DNA of 64,000 nt from Lytechinus variegatus. Its lineage: Eukaryota > Echinodermata > Echinoidea > Temnopleuroida > Toxopneustidae. Position numbers and translations under genes: made by a program. The notes beneath the pieces are model-generated. The model saw only the letters and a list, made by a program, of their open reading frames with translations, made no database searches and was not told the origin of the DNA. Below are positions 7,600 to 60,900 of the stretch, piece by piece. Location of the stretch: positions 39,186,687 through 39,250,686 of the forward strand of contig NC_054746.1 in NCBI RefSeq assembly GCF_018143015.1. Reading direction: 5' to 3'. The number at the start of each line of letters is the position of its first letter. Position 1 is the first letter of the stretch.

Positions 7600-8731
7600 G
7601 ATTCATTCATTGTAGTCGTGTCTTACATTGATGCAAATCAAAATTTACACTATCACTGTAAAGCATACTCCCTGAACATCCAAGCATTAACAATAATATA
7701 GGGTATTTATATTGCGCACATTAACATATACCACATAAATATGGTACCAAATTATTTTAGAACATACTCTTTTAGGCCATATATTCCGCGTAGAATGCCC
7801 TTTTTCCTTATATTGGGGATTTGTGAGGAGTCAAATTTCTCTGACTCACACTGTATTACCAGTAACAGTCACAAAATGTCATTGAAACTACAGTAGTTTG
7901 TTTGGATCTGAACCAGACTAATGCTCTCAATATAACAATTTTTTGTGCCGGGCCGGTATTTTGATTGAATGAGGCCAAATTAGTCCTTGTATTATTTTAT
8001 GATAATGATATATCTTATTCTTTTCATTCATTTTCTCTGTTTTTGAGCCTTTTCTCCTTTTCTTTCAACACACAAGAGTTTAGGGGGGGGGGCTTGATTG
8101 CTCTTCCTATCCTTTCCAATGTGATGTATTCATCCACAAATGTATGTCTCTCTCAAGGTCCCAATACTAAGGTATCTGTAAAGGCCACCTTATGACTGAT
8201 CCACAATCCCATTTTAGCATTTTGCTCATTTTTTTTCAGAAAATGTGATGAAAAATGTTTGATTTGAGGTTCAAAGTAACTGAGAGAATACTAACATGAG
8301 TGCAAGCCTTTACTTTAGAGTTAAGGCCAAATAAATTTCAAATCATAGCCAATAGTACCATTGCTATGATGTCATTACGACTAGATATTTAATTTGCTTT
8401 TCTGTAATGTACTTCATTGCATGTGGTCTTTTAATTAGCACAGTGACAACATCACAATTGACAATCAAATCTTTGACACGCTTGTTCACACAGATCTATC
8501 AGTTATATCACTTTATTGATCGGCTACTAATTACATCAAACAAGATGCCTTCAGTAGTAGCAGTACATAATTGAAGCACAAAACACAATATCACAGGGTA
8601 CCAGAGATATTATAAGGAAAAATATCACCTCACTATTTCTTTTCATCAGTAGTTCTGCAACTTAGTTGCGCAATAATTGTTGCTTCTTGGAAGCGCTTTT
8701 CAATTTGGTCAAAGATAAAAAGCTTTTATCA
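7600..8731. other. gene-free stretch, no recognised content
   Basis: No coding similarity and no clear repeat border. A G-run lies near 8085. Confidence 0.4.
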
Positions 8732-8735
8732 TTAA

Positions 8736-9314
8736 AGGAAACCAAAACCCAAGAAGAGAAGTAATCTTATTGGAAAGAGTAAAATGAGAGGAACAATTTA
8801 AAAAAAGTTTCATCAAAATCGGTTATGAAATAAGCAAGTTATGGGAGTTTGAAAACTCTTGTTTTACTTTCTATGGGCATCCTCAAATTGGCAAACGTGC
8901 TTCAAAATGGCTGATTTTGTGGACAACTATCCATTTGTTTTGTACACAAATTTTCGGATTTTCCTCATTATCTTTAAAATTGCATCTTGCCTCCTTCTGA
9001 GCACAACATATGTCATGGGAAAATATAATCCACACCATATATGTCAAGGTCAGGAGGAGATAATGTGAAATATGTAAAATAAAGGGGAAAATCTGAAAAT
9101 ATGTGTACAAAACAAATGGAGAGTTGTCCACAAAATCAGCCATTTTGAAGCACGTTTGCCAATTTGAGGATCCACATAGTAAGTACAACAAGACTTTTTA
9201 ATCGTCCATAACTTGCTTATTTCATAACCGATTTTGATGAAACTTTTTTTAAATTGTTCCTCTCATTTTACTCTTTCCAATAAGATTGCTTCTCTTCTTG
9301 GGTTTTGGTTTCCT
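8736..9314. mobile_element. TTAA-flanked MITE with very long inverted arms
   Basis: The ends AGGAAACCAAAACCCAAGAA are near-perfect inverted repeats, and complementarity continues inward for more than 150 bases (for example 'cctcaaattggcaaacgtgc' at about 8880 answers 'gcacgtttgccaatttgagg' at about 9150). It is flanked on both sides by TTAA (8732-8735, 9315-9318). Similar open frames appear on both strands because the element is palindromic. The TTAA target suggests a Kolobok- or piggyBac-type mobiliser; AGG termini favour Kolobok-like, as inference. Confidence 0.85.
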
Positions 9315-9318
9315 TTAA

Positions 9319-9980
9319 TACAGAAAAAAATATATGAAATATACAGGTTTTTTTACTTCATAAGTATAGTTTTCAATTTGGGGAGTCAAAACAACATAAA
9401 AACTGTTTTTTTTTATATAATTCATGGATCATTAATTCAAGACCTGACAAGGATTATACATATGTCTTATTTTAAAATGTTCAGAATAGTTGCAACAGTC
9501 ACACCTAAGGCCCCTAATATTTAAAGATAGGATTGTATCACCTTTAATAAACCCCAAAATAGGTCACTGAAGATTGGCTACCATATTTAATCAGGAAAGC
9601 ACTGGGATACTCATCTTAGTATATCATTGGCATCTAAAATATGAAGTATAGCTTCGAGGCCGTGGAAAGAGTACTTTAAAAGGAGAGTCAATACAAATGA
9701 AATCACTTTAATTTCAAAAAGAATAAATCAAAGATATCAGATTTAATGCAGAACCCATCAAATAGGCCGTTGTAGTAAAATAAAAGTGTGGACAAAAAGA
9801 GAAAAATATTAAACAAAATACAGACTTTATAGGCAAACCAAACATCACAACTCCAATGGCACAATAGTTCTTGAAGCAAAACTACCATGGGTAGCAATAT
9901 TTCAAACTGGCAGAAAAATTGATATTACATTCAAAGATTATATGTATATACCTTGTCAGTTAATCACCTGGCCAACATGT
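9319..9980. other. gene-free stretch 3' of MDH1
   Basis: Nothing recognised; downstream flank of MDH1 on the minus strand. Confidence 0.4.
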
Positions 9981-9986
9981 TTTATT
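9981..9986 (-). terminator. candidate MDH1 polyadenylation signal (AATAAA)
   Basis: AATAAA on the minus strand lies about 195 bases past the MDH1 stop codon, a plausible 3' UTR length. No transcript data are available, and other AATAAA-like sites lie further down. Confidence 0.4.
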
Positions 9987-10139
9987 GGGATGAACGGTTA
10001 TTAGCTGCACATTCAAATGGTCATATAAAGAAAGCTTCAATAGTAATCCACACCAATTAAGTTTTATATCAATCATATAGTATATGCTAAACATTTGTTT
10101 CCATTCAATTTTCTCCATAGAAATAGACTAAACAGAGTC

Positions 10140-10184
10140 TCAGAGACGAGACTTGTCTGTACTCATTCCACGAGCAGTCGGTCA
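10140..10184 (-). other. in-frame readthrough extension of MDH1 ending in a PTS1 (KSRL)
   Basis: Past the MDH1 stop (CAA TGA C) the same frame encodes PTARGMSTDKSRL and then a second TGA at 10142-10140. The last three residues, Ser-Arg-Leu preceded by Lys, fit the peroxisome targeting signal type 1 consensus. UGA followed by C is the leakiest tetranucleotide stop known, although the mammalian high-readthrough context UGA CUA is not present (here UGA CCG). Mammalian MDH1 is known to make a peroxisomal form by readthrough, so this is likely a functional extension giving a 348-residue isoform. It has not been shown by expression. Confidence 0.6.
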
Positions 10185-13100
10185 TTGTTGGATGAATTTG
10201 AAAGCAACTTCCTTCTCATCAAGAAGCTCTTTGGCAGTCAGGTCCATCTTCTCTCGAGCAAAGTCAGAGATGCTAAGACCCTGGACAACAGTCCACCTTC
10301 CATCTTTACCAATGTCCACTGGCATACTGTACATGAGGCCCTGTGGAATGCCGTACTGATTATTATCACTGTATACTCCCATGGATACCCAAGAACCCTG
10401 CAAGAAGAAAGAAAATGAGCTCAAAATATTAGCAGTCTAAAGAGATCATGTTCTGAAATAATCCGGGCATGGTGATTTTGCCTGTGGAGCAAACAAGATC
10501 ACTCTCTACAACCCTCAAAACTTTATTTACAGGAGCAACCATTTTCTCTAGAGCCACCTGAAAAATATAAGACACACAAAAAATATCACAATGAAATGAT
10601 CAAACTTAGGCCTAACAAAGATTAACAAGTGGAATGCCTCTGGCCGTCTCACCTGCATCACGCGGTTCAATATAGCAGCAGTGCTGACTTTGAATACTAC
10701 TCTAACTCGCACAAGATGTTCAGTGATACATGGTTACTCTTATGTCCACTTTTTATGAACTAGACCAATAAACTTACAGAGATATGATGGTTATTCAACA
10801 AAAAACCCCAACATGGCCAAAGTTCATTGACCTTACATGACCTTTGACCTTGATCATGTGACCTGAAACTCGAACAGGATGTTCAGTGATACTTGATTAC
10901 TCTTATGTACAAGTTTCATGAATCAGATCCATAAACTTTCAAAGTTATGATGGTAATTCAACAGATACACCCAATTCGGCCAAAGTTCATTGACCTTTGA
11001 CCTTGGTCATGTGACCTGAAACACGCACAGGATGTTCAGTGATACTTGATTACTCTAATGTCCAAGTTTAATGAACTAGACCAATAAACTTTCAAAGTTA
11101 TGATGGTAATTCAACAAATACCCCGATTCGGCCAAAGTTCATTGACCCTAAATGACCTTTGACCTTAATCATGAGACCTGAAACTTGCACAAAATTTCAT
11201 GAATCAGATCCATAAACTTTCAAAGTTATGATGGGAATTCAACAGATATCCCCAATTCGGCCAAAGTTCATTGACCCTAAATGACCTTTGACCTTGGTCA
11301 TGTGACGTGAAACTCATGCAGGATGTTCAGTGATACTTGATTAACCTTATGTCCAAGTTTCATGAACTAGGTCCATATATTTTCTAAGTTATGATGACAT
11401 TTCAAAAACTTAACCTCAGGTTAAGATTTCGATGTTGATTCCTCCAACATGGTCTAAGTTCATTGACCCTAAATGACCTTTGACCTTGGTCATGTGACAT
11501 GAAACTCTAATAGGATGTTCAGTAATACTTGATTAACCTTATGGCCAAGTTTTATTAACTAGGTCCATATACTTTGTAAGTTATGACGTCATTTCAAAAA
11601 CTTAACCTCAGGTTAAGATTTGATGTTGACGCCGCCGCCGCCGTCGCAAAAGCGGCGCCTATAGTCTCACTTTGCTTCGCAGGTGAGACAAAAACCATGA
11701 TCACTCTACTGGGCGACATTTTGCTTGTGCACCTCTCAAGACCAAACTTTGACAACCAGGTACACAGTTGCAAAATAATGCAACATAAGTGCAGCAGCAT
11801 ATCAGCCTGAAAATTTCTCCAAAATATGATTTTGTGTACAAAGTCAAAGAAACTTGAGTTTTCATATTCATTAACCCTAAATAGACTGGGCTATTTCGAC
11901 GCCTAAATAGAGTGGGGGGGGCTGATTCAGCCCCCCTTATGATCTCGGCCGTTGATCGCGCGATCGCGACGAAAATTGGCACACGCGTTACCCATGGCAT
12001 TATCTACAAAACTATAACATCAAATTTGGCAAAAAATCTCATGTCTCATTAATTATGTTAATTTATGCGTAAAATCATAAGTTTGCTTTAATTAATAAAA
12101 TGCCCCTGAAATGCTAATTTTTGTTTCACATACTCTAGATAGGCATTTGATCAAATTGGTTTAAAAAAATTTCAAAATCAAATTTATTTTCTTATGTATT
12201 CTATTGTTTTCTAAATTTCTTATGTATTTCTTTGTTTTTCGACTTGTTTTTTATTGTTTTTTCAATGGAAATTGTCGGGGACTTTATTTTGACCATTAAC
12301 AAGATAAAATTAATTGATTTTAAGCAGTAAAAAGAAAAATAATGAAACATTTATGAATTTTGGCTAAGAACACTATTTGCATTGGATTTGTACACAAATT
12401 CACATTTTTTGAGTAATTTTGGGTCTGCATGCACTTACGAAATGTTGCGTAATTTTGTAACCGCGTACCCGGGGGTCACAATTTTGGTCTCAAAAGTTGT
12501 GCGAGACTTGAAAGTAAAAAGTCAGCGAGCGACGCGGTCAAAAAAATTCGCGGAGCGGATTTATCGCGAAAAATGTTGAGGGGGGGGCTGAATCAGCCCC
12601 CCCCAGTCTTTTTAGGGTTAAGACATGATTATTTTTACATTTATCAGCTGAAATGGATTTTAATATGATTATGCTTCAAAAAGTCATTGCAATAAATTTA
12701 GTGGGAAAAAAAATCAAAAGGTTGACAAGAGTTTTGTTAAGGCGAGCGATAATACGCCCGCCCATAACGCAGAAAATGGAGTCATTGGTCAAGCATGTAA
12801 AGCACGTTTGACTTTCCGACCTCAAAATCAATAGAATTCCTAGGATCTATGATAGTATCATACACACCAAATCTTATGAGCCTAGGTTAGGTTCATCTAA
12901 AGTTATCACGTTAATGAGGACTTCAGAAGGGTAAGATGAAAACATGTCAGTTTGACCTTGACCTTTTGACCTCAAAATCAATAGGTTTCCTGAGATCCAT
13001 GCTACTGCTAGTATCATACACACCAAATTATATGAGCCTAGGTTAAGTCAAACTGAAGTTATCGCATTTACAAGGAAAAGTTAGCGGACAGGTGGACGGA

Positions 13101-16100
13101 CACCGAGCATGCTACTGTAATACGTCGTGTATAAAAAACAAAGAAATACACCCTAAAACAATAATGTGAATAAGAAATTGACTTTCAACCCAGATATTTT
13201 TTCTTCTTCTTCATTTGTAAGGAACAGTATAAAAAATGTTTACATGAAAAATTAGCATTCTGAGAGCATTTTGCATCAAATCAGAGCATAGGTATGAATT
13301 ATGAAATTATGTGGTTTTAGCATAACTATGCTTCAAAACCTTTCTGCAATAAAATTTGAAAGAAAAAAACAAGAAAAACAAAAAGTTGAAAAACAAAAAA
13401 TACATCCCAGAATAATAAAACAAGTAAAAAGTTGACTTTCAAATTGACTTTTCATCTGTTAGGAATGGTATAAAGAATATTCACACCTAAAATTAGCACT
13501 CTAGGAGCCCTTCTTAGCAAATCAGGGCTCCGTGTCACACAAAGATTAGCGATCAATCGCTAAATTAACTGACCAATCAAGATCAACGTTACACGCGCAT
13601 TTGTCGCAAAATACTGACTAGGAACCAACCAGAAGTGTTCTTTCATATTTGCTATTCATCGCAAACCTTTGTGTTACGGAGCCCTGATTATACTATAGGT
13701 ATACTTTGTGCATAAATACATCCCACACTTTATCATGCAAATTTTGCGGCGACCAGCAGCCAAGATCTCAAAGGGGGTTGATTCAAGTCACCCCCCCCCC
13801 TCATCCAGCTAACACCCAAAAAAGCCTGGCCTAGTAAGGGTTAATTTATTAACATGAAATGAAGAAATGATCATTTTATGGTAAGTAATAAGATACAAAG
13901 ACTAATAATTTACCTCGGAAGTGCCAAAATGCCAGTCCTTCAAGTGATCACAGATAGCCTTGGCAGCTGACATAGCACTGGATAGCTTCCTTGCCTTGAT
14001 AATGCTAGCTCCACGGACTTGAACAGTCTACAAAACATGTTAAAAATAGCGGTAAGTATAATCGCTTAATACACATTCAATTATGTTGCACAAACATTCA
14101 AGAAACCATAATTGCAAATCTTGACCTTCCACCTATAAACGGCTATCCCCATTTTAACATCATCCCTCGCTAATTTTTCTGAAAAACTATTCTGGAAGAC
14201 CTTTAAAGGTTGGGGAAATATGTTACAACAAAAGAAATTAACTTAACATTTGAACACCTATAGTTGTATTCAAATTGGCATAATTTATTAATCATGCAAA
14301 AAAAGAATAATAAAAGAAAAAGGATAATTAACTACACAGCAATCAACCAAATTTATTTTTCATTCATGTTTTTAAATTTTATTTTGTAGACCAAATCTTG
14401 GGCTGAAATTTGAAAAATTCAATAATTAGCAATATCAACCAATTGCTTGGTAGAATATAAACATTTCAAATCATTTTGAGATAGTTATTATCCACATTGC
14501 AATTGTGTGCACAGGGGCCCGTTGCAGAAAGAATTGCAATCAAACGCAACTCTAAAAATCATGCGCAACTTGATTTTCAACCAATCAACAGCGCGCATTT
14601 GGGACTTGCGATTGATTTTTTGACTTGCGTTTAAACACAACTCTTTCTGCAACTGACTGCACAGATCTAATATGAGCAAAAAGTCAAAATAAGACTACCT
14701 TGATGAATTCTCCATTGAGCCAATCATCATCCTTGACAGCTTCAGGAGCTTTCAGCTGCTGGCCATCAATGTCTACAACAGCATGAGCAGCATCAGGGAA
14801 TTGAGTACTGGAGTGGTTACCCCAGATGGTAACTTTCTTAACAGCATTGCAAGCAACACTCAAACGATTGGCAATCTGAGAATATGTACAAATCATTCAT
14901 GAAAAGAAAAGTGAACCAGTATGAGGATCATCTTATTGCATCTATAAAGGGCTATGGAACAGAGAAAGACGACACTTGTACATTGCATGTCATGTGTACT
15001 TCAGCAGGTGGAACTGAAATTCTTGTATTGGTTTAAGATTATTTATGTCAAACATAATGGGCTTTCATTTGGGCAATATTGGTACAGAAATTACTTACTC
15101 AAAGAAATAGATATTAAATACTTGTACATGAGATTGGTTCATATTAACTCACCTGAGCCTGGGCCCTGTTTTGATCCAGTCTTGTCATACAAGAAAAATT
15201 TTCTTGAGGTATAGAAGGAGCACATTTCATGCAGACCAAACAATTGGTGTTTGCTGGGTTTCCAACAACCAGTACCTAAAGAGTGTCAAAAAGAATTTCA
15301 TATTTGGTAAATAAAAAAAAGAATCATATGGTATTGCTGAACAATTTGAATGAAAAATAATGAATGTACATGATGCATAAAGCGTAACTGCAACCTTTAA
15401 TACATATATTCCCTTTTTATGACTTATGAATGAAAATATATTGTCATCAGTGTTGTTTATTGATACTACAACCACTATGGGATCATTCCACAGCTTGAAA
15501 CCACCAGGATTTCACCCGAATCCCCAATCAGATAATGTGGTGGAATCTATTTGAGTAATCCTAATGAGATTCAGCATGTCATCTTAAAGCCTTCTAAAAT
15601 AAATGGAAAAAATATTTTTTACCTTGACTGTTTTCTTAGCAAACTGATCGATAGCTTTTCCCTGGGATTCAAATATCTTGACATTGGCCTTGAGAAGATC
15701 AGATCGTTCCATACCCTCCCTACGGGGCATGGCTCCCACGAGGACAGCATAATCAACATCAGTAAATGCCTCCTTCACATCACAAGTTTCAGTAATCTCT
15801 ATTTAGGAAAATCACAAAAATGCATTCAAAACCACATGTACATATATGAGTGGCAGAGGGGCAAAGCCAAAAAAAGGGCAGATAGCTCTGGGGAACCTTG
15901 ATTTACGCTACGCCTACCATTATTCTCTTCATTCATTTTTTTTTAAACAACATATGTTGCCAAAGCTGCTGTATGATTTGTATATATAATTTCTCACATT
16001 TGTATAATTTGTCTCATACATGTACTGTATCTAAGCAATAGCTTTGATCCAGCCAAGCTATGTCTGCTTGTCATTGTTCAAAATTTAATTAGTGGTGTCA

Positions 16101-19100
16101 AAATTATGTTTATCTGACGGTCAATCCGATCAGGGGTCGCCCTAGCCACTACCCATCTCTGTGGTCTAGTGGTTAAGGCACCAGCGTTCAAAGCTGGGGG
16201 CCTGGGTTCGATTCCCGGCAGAAGTTTTTTTTTTACCATCACCAATTATTCCAAAGGGCAGATAGCTCTGGGGAACCTTAATATAAGATATGCCTCCCAC
16301 TGTTCTCTTCTTTCACTAAATATATACATGTATACATGCCAATTAAGGTACATTAATACCCAATCTTTTTAATTCTTGAAAAGCATTCAAACAAACAAGA
16401 GTGTGTTAAATCGAAATCAGTTTCCTATATTTCATATTGTCAATGGCTCACATATTCATAAAGTAAAGTAAGACATACAATTTTTTCCCCCTGTAAAAAC
16501 GACAAAAGTTGGAGGTGCACTTTCAAATCAGAAACAAGTTTGGCCAGAGCAGACAATTTAAAAGCACAAGGGATACTCACACTCTTAAAAAGGTAGGCCA
16601 AAAAAGGCCCAATTTTTAACCATCACTGGGCAACATACTGACGGTGACCACACAACAATCTGTCCAAATTGGGTAATAAAAACTAATAATTGGGTAATAA
16701 ATTTGCTTAATAATTGCCCAGAATATTTTTTTTACCAACATACATTGCCCAACACAGCAGAACATTTTAAGTGTGCACAATTCACAAGAGGATGGTGGGT
16801 CATCACTTTCATTATACTAGGTCACAACAGCATTTCACCAATAGGATCCCAGTGCAGCGATAAAATATGAAATCAACTGATTTAGAATTCTTATTTTAAC
16901 GTTTAACGGACATTCATATGACTGTTGACAAAAAAAGGTTTACAAATTTACAACCATTTGGAAAAGGGACAATTGTACCTTGAAATTGACTAGGCATGAG
17001 TCACAACATTTAACCAATATTTAAACGACCACTAACACAAAGAACATTTACAAATTTTGGTAAACATTTAAACTGTTAGGGAAGTGACCCCAAAAACCTT
17101 AAAACTGACCAAATGTTCCTTTAATTCTTATCATACTGGTTTAAAATGGATTCAAAATGTATATATCATGAATAAATAATTCTAATTTGAATGGAAAATG
17201 AAGTGAAACCATGTTATATTTCCATAAAAAAGACAGAGGATTTTCATTTACAAGTCTAGATATAACAGCTACAATACACAAACTTGAGCATTTGGGACAG
17301 TTACATGGGTAAAATCGATCACTTCCAAGGGCCACTGCACTTTTCTTCCAATATATGCAATGATAAAACTCACTCTGGACAAGAGGTAGAGAACAATCTT
17401 GGAGTTCCATGACGACCCCACCTAAAACTGTCATCATTTGTGGGATATCCAACAGGACAAGTTCCAAAGTCTGTCAACAAAAATACAAACACATTCAGAA
17501 AGTGTACATGTAAATCATATTTCTTTCACATCCCCCTCCCTTTCTCTCCCACTATTTCAATATGTAAGCATACATATAGGGGTAAATAAGGGCCCGAGTT
17601 AGTTGTTTTTAGCTCACTCAAGTTTACCAGCGTCTATGAGATTGCTGTTTGTGTGGTATTTGAAACAGTTCATTATCTTGAGCATAGACAATATCTCATA
17701 GCACAATGCACATGGCCAGAAGGGGCACAAACTTAGCAGCACCTCAAAATAAAAATGTGTATTATGTCTTTTCTTTGTTTACTTTTGTAAGGCATTATGG
17801 TACATGCCAATACTGTACATAGCAAAATCCACCACTTTCCCTCCTTTTTTTTTATACTGGAGGCCTTTGAACTTTACATGCCTGATGGGGCAAATGAGCC
17901 CCCCCCCCCCCCCCGATTAAAACATATTTAGCACTGTATGGTTACGTCTCTTAAACCAGTAAAATGTAAGTGTAGACATCTCCACAACTGCTTAGTGTTT
18001 ACACTAAAAGTGTCCATATTTCATAGCATTGATTAATAAATCTTTAAATGAGGGCCATGGGGGAAATAATTAAATATCAATCTTGTGATTGTCACAAGTA
18101 AATGTTTTGCTATGTACTGTGGCTAGCTCTACCATATGACACCGAGGCCCGTATTCTGAAGTCGGGTTTAACTTACATGTAGTTTAGGTTTAAAGTTGTG
18201 GTCTAAGTATAGGCAGCCAATTGTTACATAAATCACTAAAGGTAGAGATCTGATATTTCAGCTCATTTGGCTTTCAAATCATTCATAATTGTGTAGGAAG
18301 TATTTAAATAAATGATTATCTTCACCATCGATGAATCAGAAAAGAGCACAGCAAAAATATGAAAAATACAACTTAATAAAAACTTTGACACTTTTGGCTT
18401 CCCATAATTTTAACACAAAATTAGACCATGGTCTAAGTTAAACCTGACTTCAGAATACGGGCCTGAGAGTCTGGTCTTCACTTTAATTTAGGCATGGCTT
18501 TGGTTGTCTAATTTGAATGTGTGCTTGCAGAATATACAGTTGAGTTTACACATAACCATGGAATTCAGTGAAATTTGTTCGCTTGCCAAACATCATAAAA
18601 TATCTTCAGAAATATACATACTACCATGACAAATTTGTTATCAAATGAAAGAGCACATTAAGCTCTTTCACATGACTGGGATGCTGTTGGGATTAAAGTT
18701 TATTTCAGGTGGAATTTTCTTTGAAGAAAAAACATATATTTGTGCCAAATGTATTCTATTTGTTTGTTATTATATTTCCAAACATCGTTTCATAGAAATA
18801 TATAAATGCCAAATCTATGATCTACATTTTCTATCATGATATGTCACTACTGAACAAAAAAGTTTAATCTGCAATGTTTGTAGTGAGAAGCAACTTGCAC
18901 AAATATGAAATGTTTTTATTTTCAATTTGTCTAAAAAATGTAGATTTTGGGGGAAAAAATGACACCTAAATATTTTTCAGATCCTGATGACAAAGCATTG
19001 TGATGACGGGCATGACATACTCATAATTTGTTTGATATCAAATTATTCATGATAGCACAAAGATACAGTATATTTTATGATGTTTGGCAATTGTCACCTT

Positions 19101-22100
19101 TTCTTTGAATTTCCTGGGTGTATGTGAACTTCTCGCCTCAACTGTATATAGTTTGACCTTGGGCTTAAGTCTTCTACAAAGAATAAAATTTGAGCTGTGA
19201 TGGCAAAGAAACCATGGATTTTCAAGGGGAAGGGGCTCATGGGATTGCCCTTGATAAGCTCCATATATAAATTCATATACCATTTCTTGGGTTGTTGATT
19301 TTTGTAGATTTTATATTGCTGATTCTCCTTTTCATGTGATTTTCTCATATTTTAAAAAATTCTGTTTGAATATCATGCAATTGTTGAACTGGAATCTATA
19401 AACTAAAATTAAAAGACAACATCACACACAATAATGACAATATTGAGCTAATTATGGGTGGTAGATTTTGAATCTCCAATGCTTAAATCCACTGCCACTG
19501 GGGTTCAATACAACATACTAAGTAACTATAACATTTTATGTTGAATTGATTTATTTTTAACTGCTGAAAGGAAATTTACCTGCTCTGGTCCAAAGACATC
19601 TCCCTTGCCAATGGAATAGAGAAGGGAATATGCAATCTGTCCAGCAGCACCGGTTACAAGCACACGAAGTGGAGCAGCCTGCAACACAAAAGCAAACAAA
19701 CTGTCAATAATTTGTATGCCTTACCTATGGCTACATGTACTCGCATTCTAAAAATTAGAAATCAGCAAATGAATGGAAAGACAAGACTATGTACCGTAAG
19801 ACGTAAGTAATGTAACATGACATAAGGTATAAACTGTGTATAGTTCTAATAACTGTTTAATTCTCAATTCCATAATTGACAATAGGAAATCATTTCAAAA
19901 CTTAAATTCATATTGCCTAAAAACATACTGTAGGTATTACTTACTTTGTATTATAGCCTAATCTTGCCTCACCTAACATACTGCAACTCAGTTTCGGGTC
20001 ATACTTTGAAATGTCATCTTTGTAAATTATTGTAAATTATTGATAAATCTACTCCAGAAAAAATCAACTTATTTCATCATCTCCATCTAACTGTCCAAGT
20101 TTGCCATTGTTAAAGAAAATAAATATTTTACCTTTGTATGATCTCATTTCTATGGATTCCCTTATTTTCATGTATAAAATACAAATCTGGAATTTTGCCA
20201 AAGATATTTGAAAATATGTTTAGATCTACTCTTAACTACAGTATATGCAAGGCTAGACATTAGCGGTGGCCCGGGGCCACCAAAACATCATCTTGGGCAA
20301 CCATTATTTAAAAAATGTTAAGTTTTGGTGGCCCGAATCGGGCAACCAATAATTTTCAAAGTAGCGCAATTTTCTCCCGACTTTGCATGCATTTATCAAC
20401 TTTCTACAGTTCAAATTGCAAGAAAATTTGTCATGCGCCTTTTTTGTTAATCTACACACAAATACACACACACAAAGATTGCATAGTCATGACAGTATGT
20501 AGGCCTACAGCTAGCATACAGTAACTATTGTACAGCCGGCTATGCCGGCTGTCTGGGTGAGCTTTGCATGCATGAAACCACTGCACCTAGCCGTGCGCTT
20601 GCAGTCTATTCAGACTCGGGGAGCTGCGATACGAAATGTTACTGCTAAGAAATCTTCCCCAGAACTTTGAAAATCTATGTCAAAGTCACATTTTACACCA
20701 ATGAAATGCCCTTCTACAGTCCATATAACTGAAACCTGATTATTTGCAAGCATTAAAAGGAGGAATTATGACCTCTCTTTTGACTCAAAAAGACAGATTT
20801 CCAAATGCATTAATACACATAAAACACATAGGTGAGTACATCACAGTCCCACATGTGCATTTGTATGTATGTTGATATTTGGTTTATTTCGACGCTGTGT
20901 CTCTTCTAGCCAAAAAATGAATAAAAAGCTTCTTTCTTTCTTGTTTATAAATGACTTCTTAAACCACTCTAAAGGAAGTAAATACTTTGGGAAGGCATTT
21001 CATTGATATGAAATGTGAATTTTTTCCATCATTTTGTCAAATATAAGGAAGGAATTTTCTCACTGTTTTTTCCAGATAACTTATGCCATTTTCTTATTTT
21101 TTCTTTCATTTTTTACAGTGATTAAACCATTTATACCCCTTCCCATTGAATATGCCTGATTAAAGAACATGTTTCTTCTGAATAATAATTTTCCCCATTT
21201 TTTTATAATTTTGTCTTAATTTTTCTTACATTTTCTTTGGTTTTTTTCTCAATTTTTTTCCCTCTGTTGGTTCTTTCTTCATTTTAACATACAAGATGTA
21301 TAAAGAATAGTGGTACGTGCTAGTGACTGCATAATATTTTAGTTTGTTTTAGGCCCTATTCATTTTTAATTAATGTTTTTCTTTATATTTTTCGGGCCAC
21401 CACCAAAAAAAGTTAATGTGGAGCCTTGGTATATGAATATAACACTCGTAAATATTTTTTTTCTCTTAATCCTCATAAGAGGGACTTTATTTGTTGATAC
21501 GATATTAACAATCATTTATACAAAAGTCACAAATAAAAATATAGATAAAATAACGAAACAGGAACTAAAGGATCGAAAGAACCTTTGAGACCTGTTTTAA
21601 ATCAAGTCTCTTCTAATTACATTTTCTTCTTAAATAAATTAGAATATCTACCTTTAGATCTTTCATACACGTATGTAAAATAAAAAGCAAGAGTCATATG
21701 CTTGTCATTTCCAAAACATTTTCTGATAAACATGTCATTCCTATAGATTAAAATTGTGAAAAATTTAATATAAGAATACCAACATTCATTTCTGTTTTTT
21801 CTATTTCATGACCTATCAGGATAATTTTTTTCGTTCAGAACAATCTTTACATTGAACAAAACATCTATTAATTCAGTAACAATTTTCCAATATACTGTGA
21901 CCACTTGACAGGTAAAAAGAATAAGAATACTGGTTTCTGTAACTTTACAAATATTACATAAAATATCATTTTTAATTTTCCATTTGCAAAGACTGTCTTT
22001 ACTTGGTAGTATTCTAAAAATTAATTTAAAATTAAATTGTTTAATCCTGTTGTCGTTTATAAAATCAAGTTTAAACTTTAATAGATTCAAGAAGCAAGCT

Positions 22101-23397
22101 AAAGAAATCGTTCCAAAATGAATACAAGGGAGGTCTCTATTCTCCTTTTCGATCATCAAATGATAATAGTGTCTGGCTTTCATGCCATTGATTTCTATAC
22201 AGTCACCTTTTGATGATATTTCAATAGTGCTGGATTTTGATGACATACTATTTACATTTCGTGCACTATTATTACGTAATTTGTCAAGCCATGACTTCGG
22301 GAATGCATTTTCATCAATTCAACGGTAGAAAGTAATTCTCTTTCTTTAAATACAGTACATACTGAATCAATCTTCTTTGATTCACCACCTGTTCGGATTT
22401 GTTTAACTTCCAAAATATTGTTTCTATCCAGTTAGGAAAATATATTCCTTTTTATACTTTGTTATTATTGTACCAAATAATTTTGTTTTCAATATTCGTT
22501 ACTTTAAACATATATACTTTAAATCAGCCCATGAATGAACAGAACATGTCAACATAAAATATGGGCAATTTTTTTCATACAAATACGATACATATCATTC
22601 TTTTTGCAATTAAAAGTCAAAAGACTCGTCAATATATCAACCCAAGGTTTCCTCTTTATGTTAGAATATTAAGGTAATAGTAGAAATGCTGTTTTGTTTT
22701 TTCATTGTCCTACCTGCAATTCATTTTGTGTGCAATATATCAAAATTTCAAATTGTGGAATAGGTAGCCTTTTTTTTTAACAAGTGCACACATAGGGGCC
22801 TACATAGTTACCAATGAAAGCAGGATAAAAGAGCATTGTAGATTAAATGCCTTGCTCATGGGCATAGGTGCTCCGGCCGGGGATTGAACCCCGGACTTTC
22901 CATGTAGGCTATACCAGACCACTTGACCACGGCAACTCCACTTGACCACATTCCTAATCCTAGTTCCTACTCAACGAACTTCAACACTTTCCATTCTAAA
23001 ATCTAAGTAGGGCCTAGGGGCCTAAACTCTCTTTTAGACTTTATAAAGACTGTACTTTTCAAACAAGTGGAGTGCCTCGGCTCTGGCAGTCGTGGAGAGA
23101 GACAGAGGTCTACACACTGGACAGTGCTGCTAATTTAGTTCCAAATATAATAGGGCCAATATAAGAAGATCTGGATCAAGGACAGGTAGCCTAGTTAAAA
23201 TAGGTAGCCTAGGCCTAGGTCTCGATCTAGACTATGTCAGTGGAAAAAAGGCTGAACACAAGTTGTTGTGAGTTGTGTAAAAATTTGTATTATTATAGCT
23301 AACTTTATCAAGCCAAGCAATGCTAAATATCTTCTGGTTCTGTCATGGCTGGCTTGTGCCTAAAAGTAAAGCCAACATTGCCTTAATTGCTTACCAT
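10182..23397 (-). CDS. MDH1: cytosolic malate dehydrogenase, 8 coding exons, complete
   Basis: NAD-dependent interconversion of malate and oxaloacetate in the cytosol; part of the malate-aspartate shuttle. Coding exons in order: 23397-23395 (the ATG alone), 19678-19580, 17470-17374, 15798-15623, 15275-15153, 14875-14699, 14027-13914, 10397-10182. All junctions are GT/AG and in phase, giving 334 residues, identical in length to the human enzyme. Visible motifs: dinucleotide fold TGAAGQIA (residues 10-17), Asp42, active-site loop MPRREGMER with Arg92 and Arg98, VGNPANTN (129-136), TRLDQNRA with Asp159 and Arg162, and IWGNHSST with catalytic His187. The start is the ATG directly followed by a donor, giving [11 protein letters not shown]. 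An 83-codon open frame (23650-23399) ends one base before this ATG. Introns 1, 3, 6 and 7 are loaded with mobile elements. The stop is followed by a possible readthrough extension (separate entry). Confidence 0.97.
10622..11694. mobile_element. element with internal tandem units carrying five DR1-type TGACCTTTGACCT sites
   Basis: Sits in MDH1 intron 7. The ends carry GTCTCACCTGC at 10646-10656 and its reverse complement GCAGGTGAGAC near 11680. Between them about five units of 130-195 bases repeat 'aaagttcattgacc', TGACCTTTGACCT, '(g/a)tcatgtgacctgaaac', 'aggatgttcagtgatacttga' and 'aagttatgatggtaattcaac'. The second end contains 'aacttaacctcaggttaaga' and a GCC triplet run. A short copy with the same two ends but almost no internal units lies inverted at 40082-40432, which shows that the unit number varies within the family. 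No coding capacity; superfamily unknown. Confidence 0.8.
11875..12617. mobile_element. inner TTAA-flanked piggyBac-like MITE, inserted in a relative
   Basis: Ends CCCTAAATAGACTGGG and, reversed, CCCTAAAAAGACTGGG, flanked by TTAA on both sides (11871-11874, 12618-12621). Next to each end is a GGGGGGCTGA(T/A)TCAGCCCCCC palindrome. The body, read in reverse, matches the 61646-62279 copy ('gggtacgcggtt', 'aagtgcatgcagacccaaaatt'). It therefore belongs to the same family as the element it entered, in the opposite orientation. CC(C/T) termini plus TTAA are the piggyBac signature. Confidence 0.85.
12735..13130. mobile_element. tandem-unit element, copy 1 (GGCGAGC...ATAATACGCCCG end)
   Basis: One end reads AAGGCGAGCGATAATACGCC. 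The other holds 'acaggtggacggacaccgagcatgctac' and 'aatacgtcgtgtat'. In between, two units of about 170 bases repeat 'gacctcaaaatcaatag', 'gatccatg.ta.tagtatcatacacaccaaat', 'tatgagcctaggtta' and 'aagttatc'. An inverted homologue is at 38320-38765. Short tandem units between short terminal sequences are shared with the 10622-11694 family, but the sequence is distinct. No coding. Confidence 0.75.
13523..13686. mobile_element. hAT-like MITE (CAGGGCTCCGT ends)
   Basis: A 164-bp element with imperfect inverted ends CAGGGCTCCGTGTCACACAA and CAGGGCTCCGTAACACAAAG, extending inward through 'agcgatcaatcgc'/'gcgatgaatagc'. It lies inside the outer TTAA element. No coding. Confidence 0.75.
14512..14662. 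mobile_element. hAT-like MITE, CAGGGGCCCGTTGCAG family, copy 1 (right tip lost)
   Basis: The left end CAGGGGCCCGTTGCAGAAAG is complete. The right end matches only as 'ctctttctgcaac', the terminal dozen bases having been replaced. The body aligns with 29453-29603 in reverse order ('caaccaatcaacagcgcgca'). Located in MDH1 intron 6, close to exon 6. Confidence 0.75.
15873..15939. repeat. direct repeat flanking a tRNA-like sequence, copy 1
   Basis: AAAGGGCAGATAGCTCTGGG followed by 'gaacctt', 'acgcctaccattattctcttc' is repeated with few changes at 16253-16318. The pair brackets the tRNA-like sequence at 16155. Confidence 0.7.
16155..16226 (+). tRNA. tRNA-like gene or pseudogene, UCA anticodon, followed by a T-run
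   Basis: The strand folds as a cloverleaf: acceptor ATCTCTG with CAGAAGT (one C-A mismatch, one G-T), A-box TGGTCTAGTGG, anticodon stem CCAGC/GCTGG closing the loop GTTCAAA, 4-base variable loop, T-arm CTGGG/CCCGG with TTCGATT. The loop reads anticodon TCA, which would pair with UGA. A run of nine or more T immediately after is a good Pol III stop. It could be a decayed tRNA, the head of a tRNA-derived SINE, or (less likely) a true opal-reading tRNA. Located in MDH1 intron 3 on the opposite strand. Confidence 0.5.
16253..16318. repeat. direct repeat flanking a tRNA-like sequence, copy 2
   Basis: Second copy of the roughly 66-base segment found at 15873-15939, about 380 bases away in the same orientation. 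Confidence 0.7.
16579..16776. mobile_element. short MITE (CACACTCTTAAAA ends)
   Basis: CACACTCTTAAAAAGG at the left is answered by GCACACTTAAAATG (reverse complement) at 16776. The interior has repeated 'attgggtaataaa' and 'attgcccag' words. Located in MDH1 intron 3. Confidence 0.55.
18145..18464. mobile_element. MITE with AGGCCCGTATTCTGAAGTC ends
   Basis: Inverted ends of about 30 bases, AGGCCCGTATTCTGAAGTC(G/A) continuing 'GGTTTAACTTA', with one or two mismatches. Near the right end 'agaccatggtctaa' is itself palindromic. 320 bp, non-coding, in MDH1 intron 2. Confidence 0.8.
18594..19089. mobile_element. MITE with GCCAAACATCATAAAATAT ends
   Basis: GCCAAACATCATAAAATAT at 18594 is answered by its reverse complement ending at 19089. 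Inner complementarity is visible around 'atgacaaatttgttatcaaatga' against 'tttgatatcaaattattcatgat'. Non-coding, about 500 bp, in MDH1 intron 2. Confidence 0.6.
20253..21424. mobile_element. putative TIR element with GGTGGCCCG ends
   Basis: The left border CTAGACATTAGCGGTGGCCC is answered at the right by 'ctccacattaactttttttggtggtggcccg' read in reverse. The interior carries 'ggggccaccaaaa' and 'ggtggcccgaatcgggcaacc'. About 1.17 kb with no coding similarity. Borders are approximate; the end match is partial. Confidence 0.45.
21806..22680 (-). mobile_element. LINE fragment: C-terminal end of a reverse-transcriptase ORF, decayed
   Basis: An open frame at 22246-21806 reads in order [34 protein letters not shown] and 'VYWKIVTEL'. 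This follows the 'ilp...slyrW...d.lC..C......HlF..C....fW' pattern found after the reverse-transcriptase domain in L1/Tx1-type non-LTR retrotransposons. Upstream, up to about 22680, other frames give IWYNNN- and KKEYIF-type words seen in the same region of those proteins, but stops and frame changes interrupt them. Old and inactive. Located in MDH1 intron 1 in sense with the gene. Confidence 0.6.
22769..22939 (-). mobile_element. tRNA-derived SINE, copy 1
   Basis: Minus strand: a tRNA-like head with A-box remnants ('gccgtggtcaagtggtct') and B-box GGGTTCAATCCCC, then 'agcacctatgcccatgagcaaggcattt', 'tttatcctgctttcattggtaacta', ending in an A-run (plus-strand T-run at 22769-22778). It matches 42177-42365 throughout. 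Located in MDH1 intron 1. Confidence 0.75.
22940..23394. other. MDH1 intron 1, 5' part; no other feature seen
   Basis: Plain intronic sequence up to the first exon donor at 23394. No repeat border recognised. Confidence 0.4.
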
Positions 23398-54750: not shown

Positions 54751-54976
54751 ATTTATGTGCATTTGTGTGGGCTTAAAAATACGCCACAATGGGGCTTCCT
54801 TGGCGTCTATTTGATGAAAAGGCCATGGCTTCCGCGCTCCGCGGGAGTGGCAGCACAAGTCCCCGACATGGGTGAATTTTTTTCTGGCGAGAACGCTGTT
54901 GCAGTCTGTATGATAAAAGGATCAATAAAAAATATCAAAATCAGTAACAATGGATTGCTGTTTCTTTCAATTACAG

Positions 54977-54996
54977 GTCAGCTTAGCAGAGTGAAA
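54977..54996 (+). other. TTC8 5' UTR tail after a likely splice acceptor
   Basis: A pyrimidine-rich run ending TTACAG at 54976 looks like a 3' splice site, so the 20 bases before the ATG would be the start of the first coding exon, with a non-coding exon further upstream that I could not locate. An in-frame open stretch upstream (from 54688) is therefore probably not translated. Confidence 0.5.
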
Positions 54997-57900
54997 ATGG
55001 ATCCCTTGTACATGGCAATGAGTCTGTTCCGCAGGAGAAAGTTTGAAGAATGTGTAACAGTCTGCTCTCAGCTTTTGGATAAGAATCCTTATGATCAGGT
55101 ACTTGTACTTGTTTTTTGCCTGGTACACGGTCTTTTATGTAGCTTTTTGTAAAGTTCAGAATTATTGAAGGACCTGCATCTACCTTTCATCAACTACCTT
55201 AGACCATTCATTTTCACAGAATTTAAAAAGGCTTTTGATAAATAAATGTTATATAAATAAATGTCATGTGATACATTCACTGCATCTTGACACACTTTTC
55301 AATATGTTTCAGCACATTTATCATCCTGTTCTTGTCTCATTTGTCACCCAAACTTACTGCCTTGCCTTATCTAAAATAATTTAACTTTCTTATTATTTTT
55401 CAAGCAAATGGTATATCAATCCTCACCATCCTCATATTCCAGAAAAATGTCGTTTATACTGTATGGCATTTAAATGAAGTTGCCACCAGCTGTAGGATGT
55501 GGATATTTTTTTTAATGTGCCAGTGCAAAGACTTGAAACTCAATAGACTATTTCAGTTTATTTTACATTTATTTTGATAGCGATCAAAGTTCTCACCATT
55601 TCTCATAATTCATTCTGTATATAAGTATAAATCAGTCTTTTTTCAATCGCCATATTAAAGTCTGCTTGGACCTTAAAGACAAGAGCATTGACTGAACAGG
55701 TTTACTTAGATGAGGTAGATGTGGATGAAGAAGGCATTGCTGAGATGCTTATGGATGATAATTCAATAGCTCAAGTAACACGTAAGTTTATTTTTTTTTG
55801 TTATTAAATAAAATCTTGGAGGATTTTATTGAGACTTATACCAGAATTATATCAAATGATTTAATGATGGTTTTGGTTTAGTATATCTGATAATTTAATT
55901 TCTATTTTGATTCATGTACATTTAGGATATTGATTTATCTGATATAGGTTTTGAAAGGATACCTTCATGCAAATTTTAATAGTGAAATGATAAAGGGCCA
56001 AAACTTTCATGCCAGAACCCTTTACAATCATTTAGGGATGAATTAAAATTCAGTATATAAAAGATAAAAAACTTAAAAAGAATAACACAACCCTAGTTGG
56101 TGTATGTACACAAAACCTTTTTGTACATTGATCTTTCTATGAATTTTATTGCAATAGGTCTTCATTTTATAAAGGAAGTGGTTAAAAGTTGGGATTAAAA
56201 TATGAATATTTATAATACATTCAGGTCCAGGCACATCATTAAAGAAACCTGGTACTGGTTCAGGGGCACCCAGTGCAGGGATGCGTCCTACATCTCAGTC
56301 TGGAAGACCTTTGAGTGGGTTTGTAAGACCAGGTACACAGAGCGGTAGACCAGGTACTATGGAACAAGCTATCAGAGCCCCTAGAACGGCACACACAGCT
56401 CGTCCTGTCACCAGTGCTTCAGGCAGATTTGTTCGCCTTGGAACGGTGAGTTACGAGATTTAATTTGTTATTAATTTAATTAAGATATTGAAGCTTGGTT
56501 AGTTTTCACCAAAAATAGAAATGATGAGAGTGCATCTCTGCATCAGAATAGAAATGCTGAATTTACTAAATGGTTTGTAAACAGGATGATTGAGTATTAT
56601 TGAGCATTATAATGCTTTAACTCAAATTGTGTGGTGTAAAAAGGGATGATTTCATGTGGGAAAGTACTTGGGCATAGATTCATGAAACCTAAAGAAAATT
56701 TACATAATTTGAAAAGGTCTGTCATCTCCTTTGCCATTTGATCAATGCAAACTGCATAATATTCCACACATTGTCTACACACTACACAAATCTCCCCAAT
56801 CTACTCCGCATATTTAACAGAAATTTGCACTCAGTCATCATGACCAATTGAATATATACTCTTAAATGTTTGAGCAGCTATGAATTCACATCAATAAACA
56901 TAATAATTATAATTTATTGAACAGGCTTCTATGCTGTCCACACCAGATGGGCCATTTATCAATATTGCAAGATTGAACATCTCAAAGTATGCTGCCAGAC
57001 CAAATCTAGCCAAGGTAATGTACTCACTGTAGTCAAATGAATTATTTGGGGTTAAAAAAGAGCTTCCGTGAATGTCAGGTTTCCTGAAATGACGTGATTC
57101 TATTGCAAACAAACTCAAAATATTTCTCAAAACCTCTCTTATTTATGCATTATACAAATTCATTAGATTGTGTAAGTGAACATGATATCCCTGAAAGGTA
57201 GATATTGCTCAAAGTAATGTTTGCAGCTCTGAGTAAAGTGATTAGGTATTATACTTCAAAATCGCAACAAAATTTGCTTCTTCATGAAAAGAAAAGAAAG
57301 ATTTATTCATTTACGTTGGAATTTTATATTTTTTAATTAATTGAAGAAAGGAGATTCCATGCCTTTCACACTGTCTTGGATCAAAATTTTACTCATCTAA
57401 CCAACTTTAAACCTAATCCTTATCCTCACATTTATTGAACCCCAAAATCCAATTATAACTGAATTTCTATGTCTTGCAAGGAATTGAAATAATGAGCAGT
57501 GTGTACCAAGATCAAACATCAAGTAAAAAATATGTTAGCATGTAAATACAGCATGTTTAGTCTGGTCTAATTTCTTTATATACCAATAAGTTCACAGATG
57601 TTTCAATAAGTTTTGTTATCAAATGGATCGTCATTACAAAATATTTATCAACATTGTGCTTGTATTTTTTTTTTCTAGGCTTTATTTGAATATATTTTTC
57701 ACCATGAAAATGATGTGAGGAATGCATTAGAGTTAGCAGCCAAGGCTACTGAAGCTTGTCAATTTAAAGACTGGTGGTGGAAGGTACAGCTTGGAAAGTG
57801 TTATTACAGGTAAGACGGTTACAACTGATTCTTCAGTTTGGGTTAGTTTTTATGCTCATTTCTTATAGGGCAGCTTCAAGTACCTGACCAAAGATGATAT

Positions 57901-60900
57901 ATGCACTGACATAACATCATGCCTGGCTGATTGCATGATTGTTGCTATATAACCAATTGAAAATGCTTTTGGTATTATTTCGAAGCCTCTCAGTTTGGGC
58001 CACCATGTATTAAGAGTTCTAGATTCATTTACCTGTATATAGCTGTAACCACTTACACACAAAGCCATAGAACTTTTTTATCATTTCAAGGTATTGCAAC
58101 TTGGTGAGGAGACAACTATGCATACATGAAAGAGGGTTTGTTCCAAACATGTGAATCTATTCACACTTTTGTCATAGGTCACAGCTTGTTATCATATTTT
58201 TAGTCCACTGTTTATGTAAATTAACCTAAATGAACTATTGACTCATTAATTCAGAAATTTTGGGTAGTTATTTGTGAAAACATTGAAAAGCATGAGTTTA
58301 ACACCATAATTCAAAAGTGTACATTTATTATTATACCCTTGATCAGAGTGTGTACATGTGAATGCATGACATGTGCATTTATTATGGTATCAAACCATTG
58401 ACTCGAAACCACATTTGTGAATTGGAGAACAAAGTTTCGCTTGCTGTCTTGGTTCATGAAATAAGTCCCTTGAATTTATATCACAAGGTTTAGGGATTGT
58501 ATCATAGTATTAATGTTATTTGGTATGAAATCTGTATTGGCAGCACTTAATTCTGTGTAAATTGAATGAATGCCCAGCAGGATTCCTCTGTTGAAATGAA
58601 AGATCACAATAATGCAAACTATGTTGTAGCCGGACTTATGATTATGGAATGTACAGCAAATATTATTTCTGAAAAATTGACCTTTATGCATGAACCTGAT
58701 ATTATCATGAGTTTTTTTATTTTATATTTATTTTACATTAAATCAGGTTAGGGTTATTCCGTGATGCTGAGAGTCAGTTCAAATCAGCTATGAAGCAGCA
58801 TGATGCCATAGATATATATCTATACCTTTGTAAAGTATATGTGAGGTTGGATCAGCCGTTAACTGCTGTGGATATCTACAAACAGGGTCTGGAAAAGTTT
58901 CCCAGTGAGACTACTCTTCTGACTGGCATTGCCAGAATATATGAGGTAATTTTTCCTCATTATTGTAAATGCAATCTCAAATTTGTAATTGTAACCAAAT
59001 ATCACAAAAACCTAATTATTCCTTAACTTGGTGTAAAAGGTTCATTTCTGTAGGACTTGTTCATTGTCATCAAGCAAGTCATGTGAGGAAAATAAACAAA
59101 ACGAGCTTCTTTGTTGGTATCATTCATACCTTATGCAGCTATGAATAAAACTTATGTCAAATTCAATTCTGAACAATTGAATTATTATTAATATTATTAT
59201 CAGACGACTGCTACACCGTTCTCGTTCACTGCTCCTAAAACTCCCTATTGAAGTGAAGTAACCCACTATTGATGATGAATAAGAATTGATGTTTCTTTGT
59301 TTTGTTTATACAGGCAATGAATGACATGGTGAATGCAGTTAAATACTACAAAGATGTATTGAAGCATGATAACACACATGTAGAAGCAATAGCTTGTATA
59401 GCAAATTATCATTTCTACTCTGACCAACCCGAGATAGGACTCAGATACTACAGGTTTGATATCCTTTTATTCCTTAAATGTTTTTTAGAACTGCGAGTTA
59501 TACAGAAAGTAACATGACATTGATTAAATACAAATGGTTACAGTGTCTAAATTGCACATTAAGATAATTGCATGAGATCCTGTTAGATTCCATGCATGGT
59601 TTCTGTTGAATTTTAATATTCTAATGAGAGTACAATTTGAAGTAACCAACCCAGATGATGCTGCTTAGCAATAACAGTGCACTGTGCCCATATTGTCTGG
59701 TTTGCATATGAACATACCTGCATGAAATCTATATCTTTTTAAAGAAACAGATATGCCTTGAAAAAAATGAAGAAACACTTTGTGGTCAAATGTTATTTTA
59801 CAGACTATTTTACAAGTTTTTTCTTTTCTTGCACTTCTTCCAATTTTAGGTAAATATGTTTTGAATGCATTTATTTCTTTTGACTTGTAATGATGGGAAA
59901 AAAAATTAATTGAATTGAAATGTTATTTTCTTTTTCTTAAAAATGTCTTAAACAGGAGATTACTTCAGATGGGTGTTTACAATGCAGAACTCTACAACAA
60001 CCTTGGATTATGCTGCTTCTATGCACAACAGTATGACATGACACTGACATCATTTGAGAGGGCGCTATCACTCTCAACTGATGATGCCACTACGGCAGAT
60101 ATCTGGTACAATGTTGGTCAAGTTGCTATGGTATGTATCTTGTTTGTAAGATGTGAAAAAACATTCCCAATCTTAACTAATTCTATGAATGATTGTAGTG
60201 ATGTTTCTATGTTCTATACTTCAGTGATCAAAATCTGATCGAATGTTTGGAAATAATAACTATCAATGATCGAACCATACATTTGCCATTTTGAATTTTT
60301 CTCTTACGATGAGAAAATATTCATAACATTACTTTTTGTAACCTATCTAGCACATCACAGTATTTATTAGTATTTGAAGTGATTTCAATATTAAAATATT
60401 TGGATTCATAATGTAATAATGCTATAATAGGAGAGGGATATAATTTGTTTAGTATATGGTCCATGTTGAAAATGTAGTTTTGAATACGTATGAAAAGCAT
60501 TTATTGATAACGACACTGATAGAATCACCCTTGTATTCCTTTGCAGGGTATTGGTGACACAGGTCTAGCTCTACAATGTTTTAGGTTAGCTCTCACATCA
60601 AATAATGATCATTCTGAGGCGTATAATAATCTGGGAGTACTAGAGTTACGTAAAGGACACATCGATCAGGTAACTCAATTCATATCTCATACAAAGTATT
60701 GACAATTTCTTGATGTGTCATAATTGTAAATGAGTGGTATAACACTTTTATATAAACATAGGGTTTATACCCTCTACATGTATAATACTTTGACCAATTT
60801 ATTTTATCTTCAGGGATCTTTTAAAATGTATTAGATATATTAGATAAATGAACTCAATGTGACAATGGGTGTATCCCAATTCAAGGTTCAACATCATTTA

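Follow-up and report, generated by a model that had tools for sequence, protein, structure and literature searches.

The human MDH1 and LDHB proteins are targeted to peroxisomes in a readthrough-dependent manner (PMC4207609), as shown for MDH1 in HeLa cells. Readthrough at the human MDH1 stop amounts to about 4%, with Trp and Arg found at the position of the stop (Hofhuis et al. 2016, PMC5133446). The extended protein, MDH1x, ends with CRL in mammals and with SRL in other vertebrates, amphibia excepted, and the SRL of the zebra finch targets better than the human CRL (PMC5133446). An SRL-ending isoform of the zebrafish Mdh1aa is produced through UGA readthrough (PMC8919083). The cryptic PTS1 of MDH1 has been reported to be highly conserved among animals and to be present in Hydra (Stiebler et al. 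2014, PMC4207609). Readthrough of about 1% is thought to be sufficient, as peroxisomes represent 1–2% of the cell volume (PMC4207609). NAD+ and NADH are described as unable to cross the peroxisomal membrane (PMC5133446). Most readthrough is nonadaptive error according to a rival view (cited in PMC10471768).

The gene examined here lies in a window of 64,000 nucleotides from the sea urchin Lytechinus variegatus (contig NC_054746.1), which is the whole stretch of DNA that was analysed. Seven coding exons were found on the minus strand between positions 19678 and 10182, with GT-AG at all six introns between them. They are, from 5′ to 3′:

19580–19678, minus strand: most 5′ coding exon found, from exon joining; it carries what we take to be the NAD-binding motif
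17374–17470, minus strand: coding exon TLELVLLDI...PLVQ, from exon joining
15623–15798, minus strand: coding exon ending with KTVK, from exon joining
15153–15275, minus strand: coding exon ending with AQAQ, from exon joining
14699–14875, minus strand: coding exon with WGNHSS, presumably the catalytic-histidine motif, from exon joining
13914–14027, minus strand: coding exon ending with GTSE, from its GT-AG borders
10182–10397, minus strand: last coding exon, encoding the C-terminal domain; 72 codons including the TGA, with a CAG acceptor

Joined, the seven exons encode 333 residues, the exon with the start codon not having been found. The translation scored 506.8 bits against the equivalog model TIGR01758 (NCBIfam MDH_euk_cyt), for which the cut-off is 470.4, and its alignments with the five top-matching chains of cytosolic MDH in the PDB cover 330–331 of the 333 residues. 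By homology, the gene is the cytosolic NAD malate dehydrogenase MDH1. The last exon alone gave 53.7 bits with Pfam Ldh_1_C, and its translation could be aligned with the C-terminal end of cytosolic MDH from animals in the PDB. When this exon was compared with genome contigs, nine loci were matched, all in prokaryote records (eight at 50–55% identity and a short one of 17 residues); viral contigs yielded two short matches.

Several other elements are present in the window. The last MDH1 intron contains minisatellite-like arrays at 10704–11191 (period 153, 3.1 copies) and at 11264–11629 (period 192, 1.9 copies). Past the polyadenylation signal of MDH1, an inverted repeat occupies positions 8731–9319, with two 281-nt arms that are 90% complementary and 27 nt apart. 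Exons of TTC8/BBS8 lie on the plus strand at about 54900–60700, where 240 residues were assembled from open frames with putative splice borders; residues 31–240 of this assembly match a PDB chain of TTC8/BBS8 with an E-value of 9e-115. An open frame of 170 codons on the minus strand (21809–22318) scored 24.0 bits with PF13966, the reverse transcriptase zinc-binding domain, below the cut-off of 27.5, and is probably a retrotransposon remnant.

The reading frame of MDH1 stays open behind its stop codon. The features of this region are:

10182–10184, minus strand: first stop, UGA, in the context CAACAA UGA CCGACU, from the sequence
10143–10181, minus strand: in-frame extension of 13 codons by translation, PTARGMSTDKSRL, with the PTS1 tripeptide SRL at its end and Lys preceding it
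10140–10142, minus strand: second in-frame stop, TGA, from the sequence
9981–9986, minus strand: polyadenylation signal AATAAA, 198 nt past the first base of the first stop

Given the distance of the AATAAA from the first stop, the extension falls within a plausible 3′ UTR. The arrangement is that of a hidden PTS1, namely a stop, an open frame ending in a PTS1 and a second stop, and the SRL end fits the PTS1 pattern of Stiebler et al. (PMC4207609). The tail was scored by tripeptide patterns only. The first-pass annotation had described this extension, and its coordinates, the number of 13 codons, the stop context, the SRL tripeptide and the Lys before it were all found again on re-reading.

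The tail shares with MDH1x, and with the cryptic MDH1 PTS1 of animals, the gene, the position behind a UGA, the open frame to a second stop and the PTS1 end. This comparison with the MDH1 tails of other animals concerns the end tripeptide only, and SRL is also the end of the non-mammalian vertebrate MDH1x, apart from amphibia (PMC5133446). The differences from human MDH1 reside in the stop context, which is UGA CUA G in human (PMC4359377) and UGA CCG here, and in the extension, which is of 57 nt in human and of 13 residues here (PMC5133446). The mammalian LDHBx is similar to the present case in that a cytosolic NAD dehydrogenase has a hidden PTS1 behind a UGA; it differs by the gene, by its description in mammals only, by the context UGA CUA G and by a tail of seven residues (PMC4359377). 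Readthrough-coupled dual targeting, shown or predicted, is also described for Tpi1, Art1 and Rpe1 of Ustilago and for the NADP-IDH of the fly. These are other genes, and they have UGA CU, unlike MDH1 here (PMC4207609).

That MDH1 carries a hidden PTS1 beyond the vertebrates was known before. The suggestion that the dual targeting is older than vertebrates was right but already in print, since the MDH1 PTS1 is reported down to Hydra (PMC4207609). The alternative offered with it, that the feature arose twice, is unnecessary. No paper on a hidden PTS1 in echinoderms was found among the matches listed, a search covering titles and the openings of abstracts. The MDH1 tail is a correct observation of a known type of feature in a further animal, and only the absence of UGA CU sets it apart.

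The frequency of such ends was evaluated in two ways. The window, searched in all six frames, contains 7511 stops that are followed by another one within 100 codons. These stops overlap, include repeats and are not independent, and every count includes the MDH1 tail itself. An S[KR]L end was found behind 12 of the 7511 stops, an end fitting the strict pattern [SAC][KRH][LM] behind 36, and an end fitting the broad PTS1 pattern of Stiebler et al. behind 76. In addition, 200000 tails were simulated to match the MDH1 3′ UTR in dinucleotide composition, and 199751 of these tails were usable; 144 ended with S[KR]L, 540 with a strict PTS1 and 1393 with a broad PTS1. Together, the window and the simulation put the rates in random tails at about 0.07–0.16% for SRL or SKL, 0.27–0.48% for a strict PTS1 and 0.70–1.01% for a broad PTS1. 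For a single gene named beforehand, the probability of a chance occurrence is below 1 in 200 with the strict pattern, and about 1 in 100 to 1 in 140 with the broad one. The first-pass annotation had put it well under 1 in 100, which holds for the strict consensus and is only about right for the broad one.

It could be that the frame of a random 3′ UTR merely happens to end with SRL. At the above rates for SRL or SKL and for strict PTS1 ends, such tails are expected across many genes, and 11 other stops in the window are followed by an S[KR]L tail, four of them in the intron repeat region 10704–11629. As genomes with many genes do contain such tails, the weight of the observation rests on the gene being MDH1. 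The tail sits in one of the few genes in which animals reportedly carry exactly such a feature, and the SRL is preceded by a basic residue; [KR]S[KR]L ended only 12 of the 199751 simulated tails. A chance origin is considered very improbable. Directly established are the MDH1 gene with its stop, the open frame that ends in SRL, the second stop and the rarity of such an end. With the small odds of a chance occurrence and the same feature in the MDH1 of other animals, the hidden PTS1 proposed in the first-pass annotation is the best reading of the region.

The bases following the MDH1 UGA are CCG A, which do not form the UGA CU(A) motif. The propensity for readthrough was calculated with the regression coefficients of Schueren et al. 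2014 (PMC4359377), a human model that correlates weakly with measurements (0.34 in cross-validation). The LINiter score was 0.125, to be compared with values of 0.816 (human MDH1) and 0.608 (LDHB). With LINfs3, the score in this human model was 0.342, against 0.940 for both human MDH1 and LDHB. In the same human model, CCG ranks 28th of the 64 triplets behind UGA, and the combination ranks 48th of the 192 stop-triplet combinations. Among 100000 random contexts, whose composition and mix of stops were chosen by the analyst, the full context scores at the 49.5th percentile. A high readthrough propensity is not predicted for the MDH1 stop by this human model, the score being average. The remark of the first-pass annotation on UGA CCG is sound in this respect.

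Measurements from the literature bear on the same question. For the four human reporter contexts in which UGA is followed by CA or CG, readthrough was 0.10–0.27%; the table that lists them contains no UGA CC (PMC4359377). The efficiency is reported to be set mainly by the two bases after the UGA, CU (Stiebler et al., PMC4207609), whereas the MDH1 stop has CC here. UGA and a C next to it each favour readthrough (PMC12233894, PMC4132726). Readthrough is also reported to be favoured by an adenine at −1 in mammalian cells and, in yeast, by adenines at both −1 and −2 (PMC12233894); the regression of Schueren et al. gives adenines at −1 and −2 little or negative weight (PMC4359377). The UGA with the C that follows is the sole clearly leaky element at the MDH1 stop. 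Since the context is UGA CCG rather than UGA CUA, readthrough is expected to be low, and a low but non-zero leak would be predicted.

The PTS1 may have been inherited from the animal ancestor while the leaky context was lost in this lineage, for example by a change from UGA CUA to UGA CCG, so that the tail would hardly be translated and would await loss. This reading, a decayed relic, competes most closely with that of a hidden PTS1 still in use. It is in line with the predicted leakiness, average in the human model, and with the occurrence of readthrough-coupled PTS1 among eukaryotes, described as patchy, with targeting that is easily tested and rejected (PMC9549241). However, the frame, the SRL end and the second stop are intact, when a drifting tail would tend to lose them, and the UGA and the C at +4 are still there. 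We hold the relic to be unlikely.

The first-pass annotation had proposed that either weaker readthrough suffices or another stimulator is used. A candidate for the latter was found by folding the RNA:

10115–10173, minus strand: predicted RNA hairpin of 23 pairs, from +12 to +70, with an 8-nt spacer after the stop; −22.3 kcal/mol by folding

The predicted hairpin, formed by the 70 bases behind the UGA, includes the codons for SRL as well as the second stop. In the context of 300 nt, the pair probability is 0.47–0.71 for 21 of the 23 pairs. When the region was compared with dinucleotide shuffles, P values of 0.206, 0.047 and 0.023 were obtained for lengths of 50, 70 and 80 nt, respectively. 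In further comparisons, shuffles were as stable in 11 of 200 cases (73 nt, stop included), 22 of 200 (105 nt, z −1.24) and 28 of 200 (215 nt, z −1.16). Equally stable folding was found in 1.8% of the 2993 stretches that follow a TGA in the window; the share was 2.5% among tiled stretches (n = 3654) and 3.6% among those matched for GC (n = 836). Synonymous recoding of the 13 codons gave a P value of 0.0134, and shuffling of the bases past the second stop gave 0.0052. A P value of 0.003 for two stretches trimmed to the stem was obtained post hoc and was left out as evidence. Depending on the length and the control (P from 0.206 to 0.0052), the predicted stability ranges from unremarkable to modestly unusual, and is suggestive at most.

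Structures behind leaky stops have precedents. In insects, they are reported to be enriched behind readthrough stops, at 9–10% of the candidates versus under 1% (PMC5100048). A 3′ RNA structure behind the stop, such as predicted here, is described for hdc (cited in PMC5100048) and SACM1L (PMC4132726). ACP2 likewise has a predicted stem-loop, of 42 nt and starting six nt past the stop (PMC4132726), when that of MDH1 spans 59 nt with a spacer of eight. The two human candidates with structures, ACP2 and SACM1L, gave little readthrough when assayed (PMC4132726), and readthrough of human MDH1 is reported to be independent of 50 bases past its own context (PMC5133446). The predicted hairpin is a weakly supported candidate for the stimulator proposed in the first-pass annotation. 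It would be speculative to propose on this basis that the leak signal was swapped during animal evolution, the PTS1 being kept while UGA CUA was replaced by UGA CCG and a strong hairpin. The corollary that one stretch of 59 bases acts both as targeting signal and as readthrough stimulator is equally doubtful, and we would give either proposal little credence. Such an exchange is a subset of the reading in which the hidden PTS1 was inherited and is still used.

The tail might also be reached by another route, that is, by alternative splicing that removes the stop, by selenocysteine insertion, by A-to-I editing of the UGA to a Trp codon, or by frameshifting. Some of these routes have precedents. 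The Nurf-38 protein of the fly gains a C-terminal PTS1 by alternative splicing (PMC4207609), alternative splicing also yields the peroxisomal GAPDH of fungi (PMC9549241), and the PTS1 of the yeast IDP2 is exposed through +1 frameshifting (PMC4526572). If introns down to 40 nt are allowed, 13 in-frame pairs of splice sites could bypass the MDH1 stop. None of their donors scores above 4 of 7, however, and any of the five pairs scoring 3 or 4 would delete 112–185 bases of the conserved C terminus upstream of the stop. To judge from these sites, alternative splicing around the stop is unlikely.

SECIS models are included in Rfam. The Rfam scans gave no SECIS match in the window at the gathering score, nor any in 9400–10450 up to an E-value of 5, and selenocysteine at the MDH1 UGA was rejected on this ground. 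Neither of the other two frames past the stop, which encode RLLVE and a 24-residue tail, contains a PTS1, and frameshifting into such a signal was rejected for this reason. Taken as a group, these other routes are hardly credible.

A tRNA-like sequence is present at 16155–16226 on the plus strand, within the MDH1 intron between the exons 17374–17470 and 15623–15798 and on the strand opposite to the gene. It scored 50.4 bits with the Rfam tRNA model and is followed by a run of T. ARAGORN gives it the anticodon UCA, which would read UGA, and a UGA-suppressor tRNA gene was considered. One pair of the acceptor stem is non-standard in the model alignment, and a 63-base piece at 16253–16315, 26 bases past the tRNA-like sequence, recurs at 15873–15935 with 86% identity. 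These two features suggest that the sequence is a tRNA-derived repeat.

The tail is probably the inherited, animal-wide hidden PTS1 of cytosolic MDH, still used through readthrough at a low level. We infer its inheritance from the animal ancestor, as well as its readthrough, import and function, from what is described for MDH1 in other animals. The majority of ribosomes would terminate at the UGA and yield the cytosolic MDH1. A few would read the UGA via a near-cognate tRNA, possibly with Trp or Arg as at the human MDH1 stop. Readthrough would add 13 residues ending with Lys-Ser-Arg-Leu, with termination at the next UGA. It is presumed that PEX5, the PTS1 receptor, would import the extended subunit, possibly together with an unextended partner. 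In the peroxisome, MDH1 would convert oxaloacetate and NADH to malate and NAD+, and the regenerated NAD+ would sustain peroxisomal fatty-acid oxidation.

The MDH1 tail of the sea urchin adds a data point on the age of dual targeting, a question that was already opened. If the tail is read, one gene would supply both the cytosolic and the peroxisomal MDH, despite the absence of the context thought to drive readthrough. The MDH1 stop would then offer a natural test of the minimal readthrough required for peroxisomes, or of what may substitute for UGA CUA.
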